From: Gemmatimonadota bacterium
Lineage (GTDB): Bacteria > ARS69
Assembly (NCBI GenBank): GCA_030747075.1
Contig: JASLLL010000055.1
Span: forward strand, 1-5,152
Length of the DNA stretch: 5,152 nucleotides
Direction: 5' to 3'
Position 1 is the stretch's first letter; every line of letters begins with the position of its first letter. The translations under genes were made by a program, and so were the position numbers. Below the pieces are notes generated by a model. The model saw only the letters and a program-made list of their open reading frames with translations. It made no database searches and was not told where the DNA came from. Below, in pieces: positions 1-5,152 of this stretch.

Positions 1-1069
1 GCGAAACATGCGATTTGTGAGCGTCGGCCTTGGGTACGGGACGCGTGACCAGCTTCGCGTGTCGGGAGAGTGGGGGCACCGGAACCTCTGGGGGCAGGGG
101 AAGCAGGCGACGCTGCGGGGGATTGTGGCGTCGGAACTGTTCCCGGCGGACCTGGTGCGGACGAGACTGGAGGGCCGGTTCGTGGAGCCGTGGCTTTTCG
201 GAACGCGCACCACCGGGACGGCGGATCTCTTCTACGAACGGCGTCGGGAGTCCTACCGGCAAGAGGAAACACTCCACCAACTGGAGTACGACCTGAGCCT
301 CGTGAGCCTGGGCGTGAATGTGAACCGAAGGTTCTCACGCTTCACGCGATCATGGCTGACGCTGGAGAATGAGTGGGCGGATGTCGACGCGGACCCGGGG
401 ACGGAACCGCCCGACGACGCGCGCCCTGACCTCACGCGAACCCTGGCATCCACCGTGGAGAGGGATCGGCGCAACGACTACTTTCAGCCCGAGCGCGGGT
501 TCCTGAACCGGGGCGCGGCGGAGGTTTCGGGTGGGCTCCTCGGCGGCGACAACGACTTCTGGAAGGCGCACATGGAGTCGGCATGGTATCGCAAGACGGG
601 TGCCGTGGTGGCGGCCGCGCGCTTCCGGATCGGTTACGAGAAGTCGTTTGGGGACTCGAAGGAGATTCCGGATCGCGAGCGGTTCAAGCTGGGTGGATCG
701 GCGACGGTTCGCGGCTATCGGGAGCAGGAGATCGGACCGGGCGACTTCGTCATTCTCGCGAATCTGGAAGTGCGTTTCCCGATGTTCTGGATCCTGCACG
801 GCGGGCTCTTTCTGGACGGAGGAAATGCGTGGCAGAGTCCGGGGGATGTTCGTCTGCGCGACTTCCGCCTTGAAGATGCCGGGGACGACCCGCAGCGTTC
901 GCTGGAGAACGCCTTCCGATACTCGGTTGGCGCCGGAGTTCGTATCCCGACGCCCGTGGGACCGGTACGATTGGATGTTGGCCGCAAGCTGAAGATCCTC
1001 CCCGTTCCCGAAGGCGGGGCGGAGGAGGATCGCTGGAGAGTACACATGAGTCTGGGACATCAGTTCTGA
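1..1069 (+). CDS. tamA: BamA/TamA-family outer membrane protein (Omp85), C-terminal beta-barrel, 5'-partial
   Basis: This is the barrel half of an Omp85 protein, which assembles or exports outer-membrane components. The frame is open to the left edge (codons CGA AAC precede the ATG at position 8), and the product starts directly in barrel strand 1, so that ATG is internal; the signal peptide and POTRA domains lie outside. Residues below count from it. Residues 3-38 resemble Omp85 strands 1-2 (GLGYG, then HRNLWGQG). Residues 153-175 match the D-x-R-N...P-x-x-G segment. Residues 229-237 hold the signature VRGY of loop 6 (R235, codon 710-712). Residues 265-275 match the GGLFLDGGNAW strand and 306-325 the GxGxR...P-x-GPVRLDVG strand. 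The protein ends in Phe, as a beta-signal should. About 353 residues is a full barrel length. TamA rather than BamA is inferred from the tamB-like gene one base downstream; the barrel alone does not decide it. Confidence 0.9.
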   Translation, partial: RNMRFVSVGLGYGTRDQLRVSGEWGHRNLWGQGKQATLRGIVASELFPADLVRTRLEGRFVEPWLFGTRTTGTADLFYERRRESYRQEETLHQLEYDLSLVSLGVNVNRRFSRFTRSWLTLENEWADVDADPGTEPPDDARPDLTRTLASTVERDRRNDYFQPERGFLNRGAAEVSGGLLGGDNDFWKAHMESAWYRKTGAVVAAARFRIGYEKSFGDSKEIPDRERFKLGGSATVRGYREQEIGPGDFVILANLEVRFPMFWILHGGLFLDGGNAWQSPGDVRLRDFRLEDAGDDPQRSLENAFRYSVGAGVRIPTPVGPVRLDVGRKLKILPVPEGGAEEDRWRVHMSLGHQF

Positions 1070-1073
1070 CATG
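1050..1073 (+). promoter_or_regulatory. Translational coupling junction between the two genes
   Basis: The stop TGA (1067-1069) and the next start ATG (1071-1073) are separated by a single C. In the downstream frame a TGA at 1047-1049 bars any extension further upstream, and there is no ATG, GTG or TTG between it and 1071. The only Shine-Dalgarno-like bases are a weak GGGA at 1054-1057, about 13 bases before the start, which is far for independent initiation. Reinitiation by ribosomes finishing the upstream gene is therefore the likely mode. No promoter-like sequence is visible here. Confidence 0.6.
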
Positions 1074-4000
1074 CGAGTGGATCCGCGAGTGATCCGGACG
1101 ACCATGGTCTGGCTGGCGGGGCTGGTCCTTGCCTGCGTGTTCCTGTTTGCGGCGCTGCTGGAGTCGGGAGTTCTCACGCCGCGACTTCGTGCGCTGGTGA
1201 ACCAGCGCCTGGGTGAGGTCAGCGGGCTGGTCGTGGATGTCGAGGCCTTCTACTGGCGACCGTGGAGCGGGGTCAGTGTCGTGGGACTCTCCGTCACCGC
1301 GCCGGGAGCGGAGGCGGACAGCGTGCGAGTCCCCGTGATCAGCGCGGATCGCGTGGAGGTGGGCTATCAGTTCGGCGGGCTTCTCAGGGGGCGCCTGCGG
1401 ATTCAGAAGCTGAAGTTCTTCCGCCCGAAGGTCGACGCCGCCACGCTTGCGGTAGTGCTTTCCCCTGGCGATCAGAGCCGCGACGACACGGTTCCCGTCG
1501 ACCCGGATGAGCATGGAGCGACCGGGTTCGGACTGCTCGTGAAGGACCTTCGTGTGATGGACGGCCTGGTGAGGGTCCCGGGTGGCGGCGAAGTGGCCGG
1601 GCTGCATTTCGTCGGTGCGCTGGACATGAGGGGGGACCGGCGAACGCTGGAGATCCTCACCGGGTCGGCGCGTCTTCGCCGCGGGGAGATCGACGAAGAA
1701 CTGGTCTTCACCGGAGGCGTCGCCGTGGACGGGGGCGTTCTCCAGACCGACGGACTTCACCTGGAGGTGGCCGGCGGGAGAATCAGCGGACTCGGAAGTG
1801 TGGATGTCACGGGCAAGCGGTCCGGGAAGCTCCACCTGACCGGAGTGGGGATTGCGCTGGACCGCGTGGTGGGGTGGTTCGCTCTGGAACACCCGCAACT
1901 GTCGGGGTCGGTGGACATCGATCTGGTGACGACGGGCCGGATGGACTCGCTGCTCGTGGTGGGGCGCATGCGTGGCAAGCAGGAGAATCGCCCGGAGCGA
2001 AAGCTCGACCTCACGGCACAGTTCACCAACGGATCCGCGCAGGTGACGGCGCTTCGTCTGGCAGTCGGGGAGTCCGTCGTGGAAGCGCAGGGCACCGTGC
2101 AGCCGGGAACGGATCTTCGGGTAGAGGGGGTCGCGACATTTCGGTCGATGGATCCGTCCGAAGTGCTGGCCACGCCCATCGAACGCCAGACGGTTCTCGG
2201 CGGGACGGTCCGGTTCGAAGGGACGGGACTCACGCGCACCAGTTTTCTGGGGATCGCGGAGGTGGAGATCGGTCCCGGGGTGGTCTTCGGCCTTCCGGTG
2301 GACGCCGGGTCGGCACTGTTCTCCGCATCAGACGGGGAGCTGACTCTTCGCGGGGCGCGCGTTGTTCGCGGGGGGACGGAGCTGAACTGCGTGGGTTCAG
2401 TGGACGCGCTTGACCGGCTGGCATTCGAAGTCGGCGGAAGCCTGGCGGGGCTCTCCGACTTCGGAGAGGTCTTTGGCGGTCTGCCCCCCGATGCGCTGCG
2501 CGGGGAGGCCTCGGTGGAAGTGAGACTTGTCGGGCCGCTGGCGGAACCGGCGCTGGAAGGCGTGTTGCACTTCGAAGACGCGTCGCTCTTCGGCGTTCAC
2601 GCGGACACGCTCGACCTCGGCGTGGAGTCGGAGCGGCTGTCTGAGAATGCGGAGTTCCGGCTGCGCCTGTCGGGTTCCGGCCTGGGCTATGGCGGCGTGA
2701 CCCTCGACTCGGGAAGCGCGGATGTTCTCGCGCGGGCGGGGAGCGCCGAGATTTCCATGCTCGGGTTTTCCGCCGGAGAGCGTGGGCGCATTGATCTGTC
2801 GGGGCGGGTGGACTGGGACCCGGAGGGAACGGTTGCCGGGCGTTTCGATCGGCTGGACGCCGTGTCCGCGGACCGTGCGAAGACCTGGGCGAACGACGGG
2901 CCCATCTCCTTCGGACACACCCCGGCCGGGTGGTCGGTGACCGGAGTGAACCTGTCGAGCGGGCCGGGAAGAGTTCGCGCGGACCTGACGGTTCCGGGAG
3001 GCGGGGGCGTCGTGATGGAGGCGAAGGGGACGGAGATCGAGCTGGGGGATGTCGCCCCCTTCCTTCTTCTTCCGGAACCGCTGACCGGGCGTCTGGAGTT
3101 CGGCGTGAGAATGGGCAACGCGGACGGCGAAGCCGATCTGGAGATCGACCTGGATCTTCAGGATGGAGCCTACGGAGCGGACGCTCTGGAGCAGCTCCGC
3201 GGTCGCGTTTCCATGAATGCGGGGCGTGTGGAGTTTCATGGCGTCGAGATCCGGGCCGGGTTTGCAGAGGCGTCGGTTGCGGGTGCGGCGCGGCGCATCG
3301 GCGAGGCGGAGAGTGCGCCGGACGGCGGGTGGATTCACGGCGGGCAATGGGAGATGGACTCTCTGCGGGTGGAGGTGGAGTTGCCGGACCTCGACCGCCT
3401 TCAGGAGATCATTCCGCGATTCCCTTCGCCCGGAGGCAGCGGATGGGCACGCGCCGTCATCAGCGGAACTTCCGACTCTCCGCGAGCGGACATTGCGCTG
3501 AGGGTAGAGGACGGAACATTCGGCGGAGAGGCCATGCCGCGGCTGGAGGCGGAGGGGACGCTTCTGGATGGAGTGCTGTCGCTGGGACGCGCGCGCGCGG
3601 AAGTCGGCGGAGGGGTGGTGACCGCGACAGGCAGCCTGCCTCTTCACTGGCGGCCGCTTGAAGGCGGGCCGAAACTCCCCCCCGACGGAGACCTCGCAAT
3701 CGACGCCACGGTGGACGGCGCGTCCCTGGGCGCCTGGTCGGTGCTTCTGAAGGAGCTGGCCGGAGCAACAGGCCCGACGCGCGGGACCGCCACGCTTCGA
3801 GGAACGCCCTCCGCGCCGGAACTTCGCGGCGCGTTCGTCATGAACGACGGGACGGCCCCGGTTCCCGAACTGGCCGACCCGGTGAAGATCACCCGCGCCG
3901 AGGTGGAGGTCACGGAGACAGGCGTCGAGTTTCGAAAGATGGAGTTTCACGACGGGCGCGGAGGGGAGGGCACCGCGATCGGGACCGTTCCTCTGGAAGG

Positions 4001-5051
4001 GCTCCGCCCGCAGGGATATGAGTTCGGCGTTCGCCTGAAGGATTTCCATTATCGAGGGCATCCGGGGGTCACGGGGACCGGCAGCGGATCGATCAGGATC
4101 ACTCCGAAGAGAACGCGCGATGACCGCGAGATTCCGTTCATCGAAGGGCATCTGGATATGTCCGCGTTGAATGTCTCGGAGGAGTTGTGGATGCCGGACC
4201 CGGCAATCATGACGGCTCCGGAGGGCGTGAATGTTCCCGCGCCGGAGGGAGAGGAAGACGCCGATCTGGGGTTCACTCGCGCCATGGTCCTGGCCGATGT
4301 GACCTTCTCCGGAGACCGGAATCTGTGGCTGAAGTCCGCCGACGGAACGGTAGAAGGATCGGGAGAGGTTCGTCTGAGGGCCACGGAGGACTTCGTCGGC
4401 CTGACCGGGCAGCTCCGGTCGCTTCGGGGGAAGTACCTGCTGTTCAATACGGAACTCGATGTGGACCGGGCGGAGATCGAGTTCACGGACCCGGCGGACA
4501 TCGAAGCGTCCTATGTGGACTGCGTGGTACATACCACCGTGCTCGACGAAGAAGTGGAGATTCACATCTCCGGAACGCTCGGATCTCCGCAGATCGAAAG
4601 CACCTCGGATAGCGGGTACACGGAGACGGAGATCTACCAACTGCTCGCGCTGCGCATCAAGCGGGACCAACCGAAGGAGGAAGCCGCCCCGGTGGGCGGG
4701 TTCACCGGCGCGCTCTTTCAGTCGTGGGGGGCATCGCTCGCAAACCGTTTCGGGCGGGACATTCTCCGGGAAGTGGGGATTGACGTGTTCGAGATCGACA
4801 TGGGAGATGTCCCCGAGGTGGGCGTGGGGAAATACATCGGACCGGGGTTCTTCGTCCGGTACACGCAGCAGGTGTCCGGGAGCGGGGAGGGACTCGCGGA
4901 GGATGTGGCGAGGGAGCGACTGGAAACTCCGGAGCGTCGGCTTCTTCTGGAGTACCGCCTGTCGGAGATGTTCCTCCTCCAGGGAGAAACGGGGACGATC
5001 GAAGGCGACGGCTATCTGAATGTCGATCTGAAGGCGGAATGGGGCTATTGA
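1071..5051 (+). CDS. tamB: Translocation and assembly module protein TamB (AsmA-like, C-terminal DUF490 domain)
   Basis: This inner-membrane-anchored periplasmic protein partners an Omp85 protein; AsmA-like relatives bridge the envelope in outer-membrane lipid and protein transport. It has 1326 residues, close to the ~1260 of E. coli TamB. Residues 1-11 are basic (R2, R6, R9) and 12-30 form one hydrophobic anchor. Residues 36-130 look like the AsmA-type N-terminal region. Residues ~180-1035 are Gly-patterned amphipathic beta repeats, expected to form the lipid-binding beta groove. Residues 1040-1066 are a Pro/acidic linker. Residues ~1100-1326 are the TamB domain: LRGKYLLFNTELDV (1118-1131), ISGTLGSP (1166-1173), a helix-prone stretch with VGIDVFEI (1235-1242), VGKYIGPGFFVRY (1252-1264), LLLEYRLS (1291-1298) and a final amphipathic strand. 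The ATG at 1071 is chosen because it is the first possible start and keeps the basic n-region; M12 (1104) would lose it. Cysteines are few (22, 440, 1151). Confidence 0.93.
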   Translation: MRVDPRVIRTTMVWLAGLVLACVFLFAALLESGVLTPRLRALVNQRLGEVSGLVVDVEAFYWRPWSGVSVVGLSVTAPGAEADSVRVPVISADRVEVGYQFGGLLRGRLRIQKLKFFRPKVDAATLAVVLSPGDQSRDDTVPVDPDEHGATGFGLLVKDLRVMDGLVRVPGGGEVAGLHFVGALDMRGDRRTLEILTGSARLRRGEIDEELVFTGGVAVDGGVLQTDGLHLEVAGGRISGLGSVDVTGKRSGKLHLTGVGIALDRVVGWFALEHPQLSGSVDIDLVTTGRMDSLLVVGRMRGKQENRPERKLDLTAQFTNGSAQVTALRLAVGESVVEAQGTVQPGTDLRVEGVATFRSMDPSEVLATPIERQTVLGGTVRFEGTGLTRTSFLGIAEVEIGPGVVFGLPVDAGSALFSASDGELTLRGARVVRGGTELNCVGSVDALDRLAFEVGGSLAGLSDFGEVFGGLPPDALRGEASVEVRLVGPLAEPALEGVLHFEDASLFGVHADTLDLGVESERLSENAEFRLRLSGSGLGYGGVTLDSGSADVLARAGSAEISMLGFSAGERGRIDLSGRVDWDPEGTVAGRFDRLDAVSADRAKTWANDGPISFGHTPAGWSVTGVNLSSGPGRVRADLTVPGGGGVVMEAKGTEIELGDVAPFLLLPEPLTGRLEFGVRMGNADGEADLEIDLDLQDGAYGADALEQLRGRVSMNAGRVEFHGVEIRAGFAEASVAGAARRIGEAESAPDGGWIHGGQWEMDSLRVEVELPDLDRLQEIIPRFPSPGGSGWARAVISGTSDSPRADIALRVEDGTFGGEAMPRLEAEGTLLDGVLSLGRARAEVGGGVVTATGSLPLHWRPLEGGPKLPPDGDLAIDATVDGASLGAWSVLLKELAGATGPTRGTATLRGTPSAPELRGAFVMNDGTAPVPELADPVKITRAEVEVTETGVEFRKMEFHDGRGGEGTAIGTVPLEGLRPQGYEFGVRLKDFHYRGHPGVTGTGSGSIRITPKRTRDDREIPFIEGHLDMSALNVSEELWMPDPAIMTAPEGVNVPAPEGEEDADLGFTRAMVLADVTFSGDRNLWLKSADGTVEGSGEVRLRATEDFVGLTGQLRSLRGKYLLFNTELDVDRAEIEFTDPADIEASYVDCVVHTTVLDEEVEIHISGTLGSPQIESTSDSGYTETEIYQLLALRIKRDQPKEEAAPVGGFTGALFQSWGASLANRFGRDILREVGIDVFEIDMGDVPEVGVGKYIGPGFFVRYTQQVSGSGEGLAEDVARERLETPERRLLLEYRLSEMFLLQGETGTIEGDGYLNVDLKAEWGY
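1896..3998 (+). repeat. Protein-level tandem beta modules inside TamB (about six copies)
   Basis: The middle of TamB (residues ~276-976) reads as diverged copies of one module. Each opens with a hydrophobic-x-Gly-x-hydrophobic motif (Gly 279, 378, 478, 673, 791, 905). Each closes with a short strand containing Gly before a small or hydrophobic residue, such as QGTV, VGSV, TGSL or IGTV (Gly 341, 442, 578, 738, 854, 971). The opening-to-closing distance is 62-66 residues in five copies and 100 in the third. Several modules also contain a G-x(4)-P turn (LVGPLAEP at 486, ISGTSDSP at 797, LRGTPSAP at 909), which recurs in the C-terminal domain (ISGTLGSP at 1166). The repeat is visible in protein only; the DNA copies have diverged. 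I aligned these by eye, and Gly is common, so module edges are approximate. Confidence 0.5.
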
Positions 5052-5152
5052 GTCCGGGGGGGCGGCAGGGTTCTGCTGCGGCTTCGTCAGGGGGCGCCCT
5101 GCTGCGTCGCTGACGCGGACTCGATCCTCGACGGGGCTATGGCCCCGCCTTC
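5052..5152. other. Intergenic region downstream of tamB with clustered inverted repeats
   Basis: These 101 bases hold no open frame I would call a gene. Three compact inverted repeats follow one another before the more terminator-like one at the edge. GCGGCAG / CTGCTGC (5062-5068 with 5073-5079) makes seven pairs including one G-U around a GGTT loop. CAGGG / CCCTG (5088-5092 with 5097-5101) makes five pairs. GCGTC / GACGC (5104-5108 with 5112-5116) makes five pairs with a three-base loop. The octamer CTGCTGCG also occurs twice, at 5073-5080 and 5099-5106. In DNA this GC-rich some small hairpins are expected by chance, so function is unproven. Confidence 0.4.
5132..5152 (+). terminator. Possible intrinsic terminator stem at the window edge
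   Basis: CGGGGC (5132-5137) and GCCCCG (5142-5147) form a perfect six-base-pair stem with a TATG loop, 80 bases after the tamB stop. Position and stem strength suit termination of the tamA-tamB transcript. The window ends five bases later (CCTTC), so a T-tract cannot be seen or excluded, and the call stays tentative. Being palindromic, the stem could equally serve a convergent gene beyond the edge. Confidence 0.35.

Follow-up and report, generated by a model that had tools for sequence, protein, structure and literature searches.

Avoidance of palindromic sites is an established sign that a genome has, or once had, a Type II restriction-modification (R-M) system, and a site is considered avoided if its Karlin ratio (Kr) is below 0.78 (Rusinov et al. 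2015, PMC4687349). For the tetranucleotide ACGT, the closest described systems are the methyltransferase M.Hpy99XI of Helicobacter pylori (A-m5C-GT; PMC10423294) and the MaeII R-M system of Methanococcus aeolicus, which acts on ACGT with a 5-methylcytosine (m5C) methyltransferase (PMC10113651) and is an enzyme pair of the type expected to yield the depletion described here. The window analysed in this work is the whole 5,152-nucleotide stretch (positions 1 to 5152) of contig C55 of a Gemmatimonadota assembly, GCA_030747075.1 (G000), in which ACGT is nearly absent. The comparison with the rest of the genome and with related genomes shows that two palindromes, ACGT and AATT, are depleted throughout this chromosome. 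These sites have probably been emptied by selection, and the most likely agent is Type II R-M that was active for a long time and was either lost very recently or lies outside the metagenome bin.

A recount of the window agrees with the initial annotation, with a single ACGT compared to 14.2 expected from a maximal-order Markov model and 15.6 expected from the base composition (Poisson P(<=1) = 1e-5), while the trinucleotides ACG and CGT occur 108 and 87 times. AATT, which the initial annotation did not mention, is absent from the window with 2.7 copies expected. The window is representative of the whole genome, as no more than one ACGT is present in 362 of 380 windows of equal length. In the 2.51 Mb covered by the genome counts, out of a 2.67 Mb assembly of 61 contigs that is probably a metagenome bin, 184 ACGT were observed and 6863 expected, giving an observed/expected ratio (o/e) of 0.027, which places ACGT last among the 256 tetranucleotides. 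AATT is the second lowest (223 observed, 1646 expected, o/e 0.135). Without the rRNA regions and five islands described below, the core reaches 105 of 6786 for ACGT (0.0155) and 188 of 1617 for AATT (0.116), meaning that about 98% of the ACGT sites and 88% of the AATT sites have been lost. The three small contigs C59-C61 (L145-L147) read entirely as N.

The initial annotation had proposed that an o/e near 1, or an equal depletion of many unrelated tetranucleotides, would make the observation a local accident, but the depletion stands. Kr values are 0.038 for ACGT and 0.136 for AATT, compared to 0.93 for TCGA, 1.03 for GATC and 1.00 for CATG, with GTAC also lying between 0.93 and 1.03. CTAG has an o/e of 0.29 and is low in relatives as well (0.51). 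A general effect of high GC content or of CpG can be ruled out, since CG is over-represented (rho 1.17) and TCGA, CCGG, GCGC and CGCG are close to 1. Apart from the fragmented state of this probable metagenome bin, little speaks for a local accident or for a sequencing or assembly artefact, and the probability of either is negligible: the pattern spans 2.5 Mb, which excludes a local event, and the rRNA genes, parS sites and islands of the same assembly keep their ACGT. Base-calling errors at modified ACGT sites are ruled out by the substitutions, which are in-frame and silent.

The avoided unit was delimited by the flanking bases. Among the flank classes with at least 50 expected copies, all NACGTN classes have an o/e between 0.005 and 0.035, and all AATT classes lie between 0.089 and 0.164. 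As every flank class is depleted, the unit is exactly ACGT, and likewise exactly AATT, which rules out a longer recognition site containing ACGT. A single degenerate site AMKT spanning both palindromes was also rejected, given that AAGT/ACTT has an o/e of 1.02.

The depletion is equally independent of the reading frame. ACG makes up 1.0% of the threonine codons before T, but 45-55% before other bases and 33% before T in relatives. NAC codons account for 1.8% before GT, compared to 74% before GA and 73% before GT in relatives, and CGT falls to 0.3% after A, compared to 12-15% after other bases and 16% after A in relatives. For AATT, the frequency drops about 11-fold in each of the three frames (3.1 against 34%, 1.9 against 22% and 2.2 against 26%). 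Short intergenic DNA contains 6 ACGT with 227 expected. The avoidance thus acts on double-stranded DNA whatever the frame, strand or coding status. These observations also bear on the possibility that something else than restriction makes ACGT and AATT costly, for instance a nuclease acting on RNA, a DNA-binding protein or a codon-pair preference. Such a cause would fit the lack of detected R-M genes, and selection of such small strength per site could have other sources. However, both strongly depleted tetranucleotides are perfect palindromes, intergenic DNA is as depleted as genes, the frames are equal, and 6-bp palindromes are generally avoided. Since this combination is not predicted by an RNA- or codon-level cause, an explanation of this type is considered highly improbable.

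The avoidance of 6-bp palindromes is weaker. Their median o/e in this genome is 0.85, compared to 1.00 for non-palindromes and 0.95 in relatives. Several are low here but not in relatives, namely GCCGGC (0.37), CTCGAG (0.37), GGGCCC (0.54) and AGCGCT (0.58), which suggests more than two past restriction specificities.

The sequences that replaced ACGT are informative about the route of its loss. The initial annotation had offered two explanations, avoidance of a restriction site or deamination at ACGT methylated by an m5C methyltransferase. The latter, which has been described for M.Hpy99XI in H. pylori, would convert ACGT into ATGT and ACAT, and the reported excess of these products is real, with 19 ATGT and 16 ACAT in the window (35 compared to about 17 expected) and an o/e of 1.27 genome-wide. 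Furthermore, m5C is the product of the ACGT methyltransferases that have been characterised, M.Hpy99XI and M.MaeII (PMC10423294, PMC10113651). The codon choices noted in the window were likewise confirmed: 11 of 12 Asp-Val junctions use GAT, the one GAC being the site at 4783, all four Asn-Val junctions use AAT, and the only Tyr-Val junction uses TAT. GAC is indeed the usual Asp codon of the upstream gene, although with a count of 17 of 25 instead of the reported 16 of 25. Threonine before T is never encoded by ACG in the window (two ACA, three ACC, one ACT), even though ACG is its commonest codon there.

Genome-wide, however, every silent escape is used where several exist. Threonine before T is encoded by ACC (64%), ACT (20%) and ACA (15%), and the gain of ACC and ACT exceeds that of ACA, the deamination product. 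Arginine after A is encoded by CGC (51%), CGG (31%) and CGA (17%), and CGT in this context is depleted to the same degree although both C-to-T products would change the amino acid. Correspondingly, cysteine TGT after A is not raised (0.238 compared to 0.231) and histidine CAT after A is lower (0.246 compared to 0.316), where deamination would have left an excess. AATT, which contains no cytosine, shows the same frame-independent pattern.

An orthologue test, based on rpoB and secY only, was performed against the metagenome-assembled genome (MAG) 'Gemmatimonadota bacterium DHS20C21', the nearest relative to hand (82% and 81% protein identity). DHS20C21 (L153) was treated as the same genome as G003 on the basis of identical counts and match places. 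None of the 25 alignable ACGT sites of this relative is kept here, compared to 113 of 262 sites of seven other 4-bp palindromes (P 7e-7). The sites lost in the ACG|T frame were replaced in several ways, with four ACCT, two ACGC and one each of ACAT, ACTT and ACCG, so that ACAT accounts for only one of nine losses. In the frame that offers C-to-T as its sole silent change, ATGT now occupies 10 of the 14 orthologous sites. This agrees with deamination when taken alone, but the excess of ATGT and ACAT stems mainly from this frame. Taken together, the site specificity, the independence of frame and coding status, the products and the orthologues rule out m5C deamination as the principal route of loss and indicate selection against the double-stranded site. 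With no PF00145 (m5C methyltransferase family) enzyme present either, the deamination explanation is largely refuted and very improbable. Of the interpretation given in the initial annotation, the avoidance part therefore holds and extends to the whole lineage, whereas deamination is not supported and the modification system in the genome was not found.

Both depletions are specific to this lineage. In a SecY search, the genome, which belongs to an uncultured bacterium, was placed near MAGs labelled Candidatus Eisenbacteria, Krumholzibacteriota, Krumholzibacteriia and UBP1. Counting SSACGTSS against the reversed control SSTGCASS gave 36 compared to 1104 matches in this genome, but 3947-5730 compared to 2348-2944 in four genera of the same family, which rules out a family-wide trait. 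The frequency of AATT is also normal in relatives. As the relatives are normal or enriched, both depletions arose after the split from the sampled relatives.

An unrelated genome, G017 (about 37% GC at rpoB; L251), was found to have 5 SSACGTSS compared to 508 control matches genome-wide. Its rpoB region contains no ACGT with 16 expected, and no match to PF00145 or PF01555 was found in G017. G017 may be another example of ACGT being lost to an extreme degree in a genome that has no methyltransferase.

The residual ACGT sites are clustered and reveal two states without a gradient. Two rRNA regions contain 18 ACGT with 19.2 expected, and five islands comprising 15 kb together contain 61 with 63.4 expected; AATT is normal in both as well. 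Two of the islands, L128:500-4400 and L133:400-4300, encode C25 peptidases that are secreted proteins with a FlgD-Ig sorting tail. A third, L078:16000-18600, has a FlgD-Ig sorting tail and a weak Reprolysin-like match, whereas L123:10400-12657 and L017:1-2300, the latter at the edge of contig C10 and of lower GC content, have no family match. The islands lie at the ends of contigs C10, C29, C41 and C46. These five islands are probably recent horizontal acquisitions. An open reading frame (ORF) at L017:2-865 carries a D...ExK-like nuclease pattern (FDLAVLSP...YAIEVKY), and the next ORF, L017:951-2063, an HExxH motif. Neither ORF has a match in Pfam, PADLOC or PHROGs; for L017:2-865, no relative was found in the PDB or in plasmid or viral-contig collections, and a single-sequence structure model was unusable (pLDDT 35).

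Outside the rRNA regions and islands, 105 ACGT are left in 2.49 Mb. Two of these each form the core of a parS site, GTTTCACGTGAAACA; both parS sites lie next to parA, close to the origin (L063:1354-1369 and 1390-1405; the parS/dnaA region of L063 corresponds to G000:C11, about 21.35-28.7 kb). Another residual ACGT (L063:8683) adjoins paired DnaA-box-like sequences near dnaA. Exact copies of TTTCACGTGAAA occur in this genome only at those two parS sites, compared to eight copies in the relative G001 and five in G004; the parS array may have shrunk in this genome. ACGT thus survives where its loss is presumably costly or in newly arrived DNA.

These results are best explained by restriction, which we infer to be the agent. 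Orthodox Type II R-M systems of ACGT and AATT specificity would from time to time cleave a site that had escaped methylation. Each site would therefore bear a tiny cost and could be replaced by any available silent variant. Assuming mutation-selection balance, -ln of the o/e would correspond to a scaled selection strength per site of about 4.2 for ACGT and 2.2 for AATT. The restriction would have been active until very recently, and its genes would be absent from the assembly either because they were just lost or because they lie on mobile DNA outside the metagenome bin. The timing derives from a simulation of neutral silent third-position changes in 900 real genes using the codon usage of the genome and no selection on ACGT. 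Starting from 0.017, the o/e of ACGT rose to 0.031, 0.050 and 0.094 after 0.01, 0.02 and 0.05 substitutions per codon. Since about 1% neutral silent substitution roughly doubles the residue, the pressure either persists or ended no more than about 1% silent divergence ago.

Several results weigh against this explanation. The simulation itself makes an old loss of R-M hard to accommodate. The initial annotation had expected the genome to encode a modification system outside the window and suggested a search for an m5C methyltransferase, but no match to PF00145, PF01555, PF02384, PF07669 or PF02086 was found in the whole assembly, and thus no m5C enzyme of the MaeII or Hpy99XI kind. This negative result has a working control, as the PF00145 search detected matches in 10 of 14 genomes and the searches for the other families also detected matches in control genomes; DHS20C21 has matches to all five methyltransferase families, yet its ACGT frequency is normal. 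A search for MT-A70 was uninformative because no control gave a match. Motif scans of the ORFs in 94% of the assembly revealed no R-M system, with RsmD as the only genuine-looking candidate, and the same 94% showed no CRISPR array. PADLOC detected no R-M component among 146 atypical genes, nor did Pfam and PADLOC together identify R-M in the candidate and these genes. A cognate R-M system was found neither in this genome nor in close relatives, which included no genome of the same genus. In genomes without any R-M system, avoidance occurs in only 0.7% of cases (orthodox site-genome pairs; PMC4687349), making avoidance of this strength without R-M genes unusual. On the other hand, unusual methyltransferases such as M.MaeIII can elude standard searches (PMC10113651), and the R-M genes may be missing through the omission of mobile loci from the metagenome bin. 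The intact sites in the rRNA genes, parS sites and islands make an unprotected resident nuclease unlikely.

Alternatively, the restricting agent could still be acting without being encoded on the chromosome, for example as the R-M systems of other strains of the population that are encountered when DNA is taken up and recombined, or as systems borne by a plasmid or phage. This would reconcile a bin without methyltransferases with a residue that limits any relaxation to about 0.01 silent substitutions per codon. Avoidance also extends to several 6-bp palindromes, as if multiple specificities had acted. The ACGT density of H. pylori also does not track the methyltransferase frequency among its populations (PMC10423294). 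However, there is no direct evidence for uptake, other strains or a plasmid, and the easy loss of mobile R-M loci from bins is a simpler account of their absence; an external agent is therefore considered unlikely. A chromosome that has no methyltransferase at all and is protected under continuing, non-encoded ACGT and AATT restriction by the absence of these sites, as are some phages and plasmids, appears rather less likely still. A recently lost or unbinned Type II R-M system thus remains the favoured explanation.

The genes in the window are ordinary, and its anomaly is compositional. The 3' part of an Omp85/TamA-like outer-membrane gene (8..1069, forward strand; PF01103, E 3e-46), whose ORF is open at the contig edge, is followed by a TamB-like gene encoding 1326 amino acids (1071..5051, forward strand; PF04357, E 1.6e-25). 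Most of the codon junctions used above as evidence lie in the TamB-like gene, which also contains the sole ACGT of the window at 4783..4786, at an Asp(GAC)-Val(GTN) junction.

A chromosome that retains 1.5% of its expected ACGT while the restricting agent is apparently absent illustrates the reach of weak selection per site. The residue can serve as a clock that sets an upper limit on the time since the pressure stopped, and a normal ACGT density can serve as a detector of genes recently acquired by horizontal transfer. Moreover, sites kept against the pressure, such as those in rRNA genes and parS, indicate a functional need for ACGT. If it is true that no strain of this species carries the R-M system, the pressure must have its source outside the chromosome, an unusual situation.

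Compared to the avoidance described by Rusinov et al. (PMC4687349), the case reported here is alike in that short palindromes are low beyond what composition predicts, that avoidance can outlast the R-M system and that longer residence leads to stronger avoidance. It differs in its Kr values of 0.038 and 0.136, in the lack of a detected methyltransferase, and in that two 4-bp and several 6-bp palindromes are affected together. In contrast to the MaeII system, this assembly contains no PF00145 methyltransferase, and because a known ACGT R-M system was searched for and not found, the genome is not classed with those that carry one. The likeness to H. pylori M.Hpy99XI lies in the same tetranucleotide, a lineage-dependent loss and no simple link to a current methyltransferase (PMC10423294). 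The density of about 53 ACGT per Mb in the hpEastAsia population (PMC10423294) is also close to the 73 per Mb found here, in a genome of 66% GC with about 2700 ACGT per Mb expected. However, the losses in H. pylori are mainly to ATGT and ACAT and have been ascribed to deamination (PMC10423294), whereas here any silent variant was used. Although its enzyme was not found, this genome behaves like other cases of avoidance driven by R-M and is a real and very strong example of a known phenomenon.

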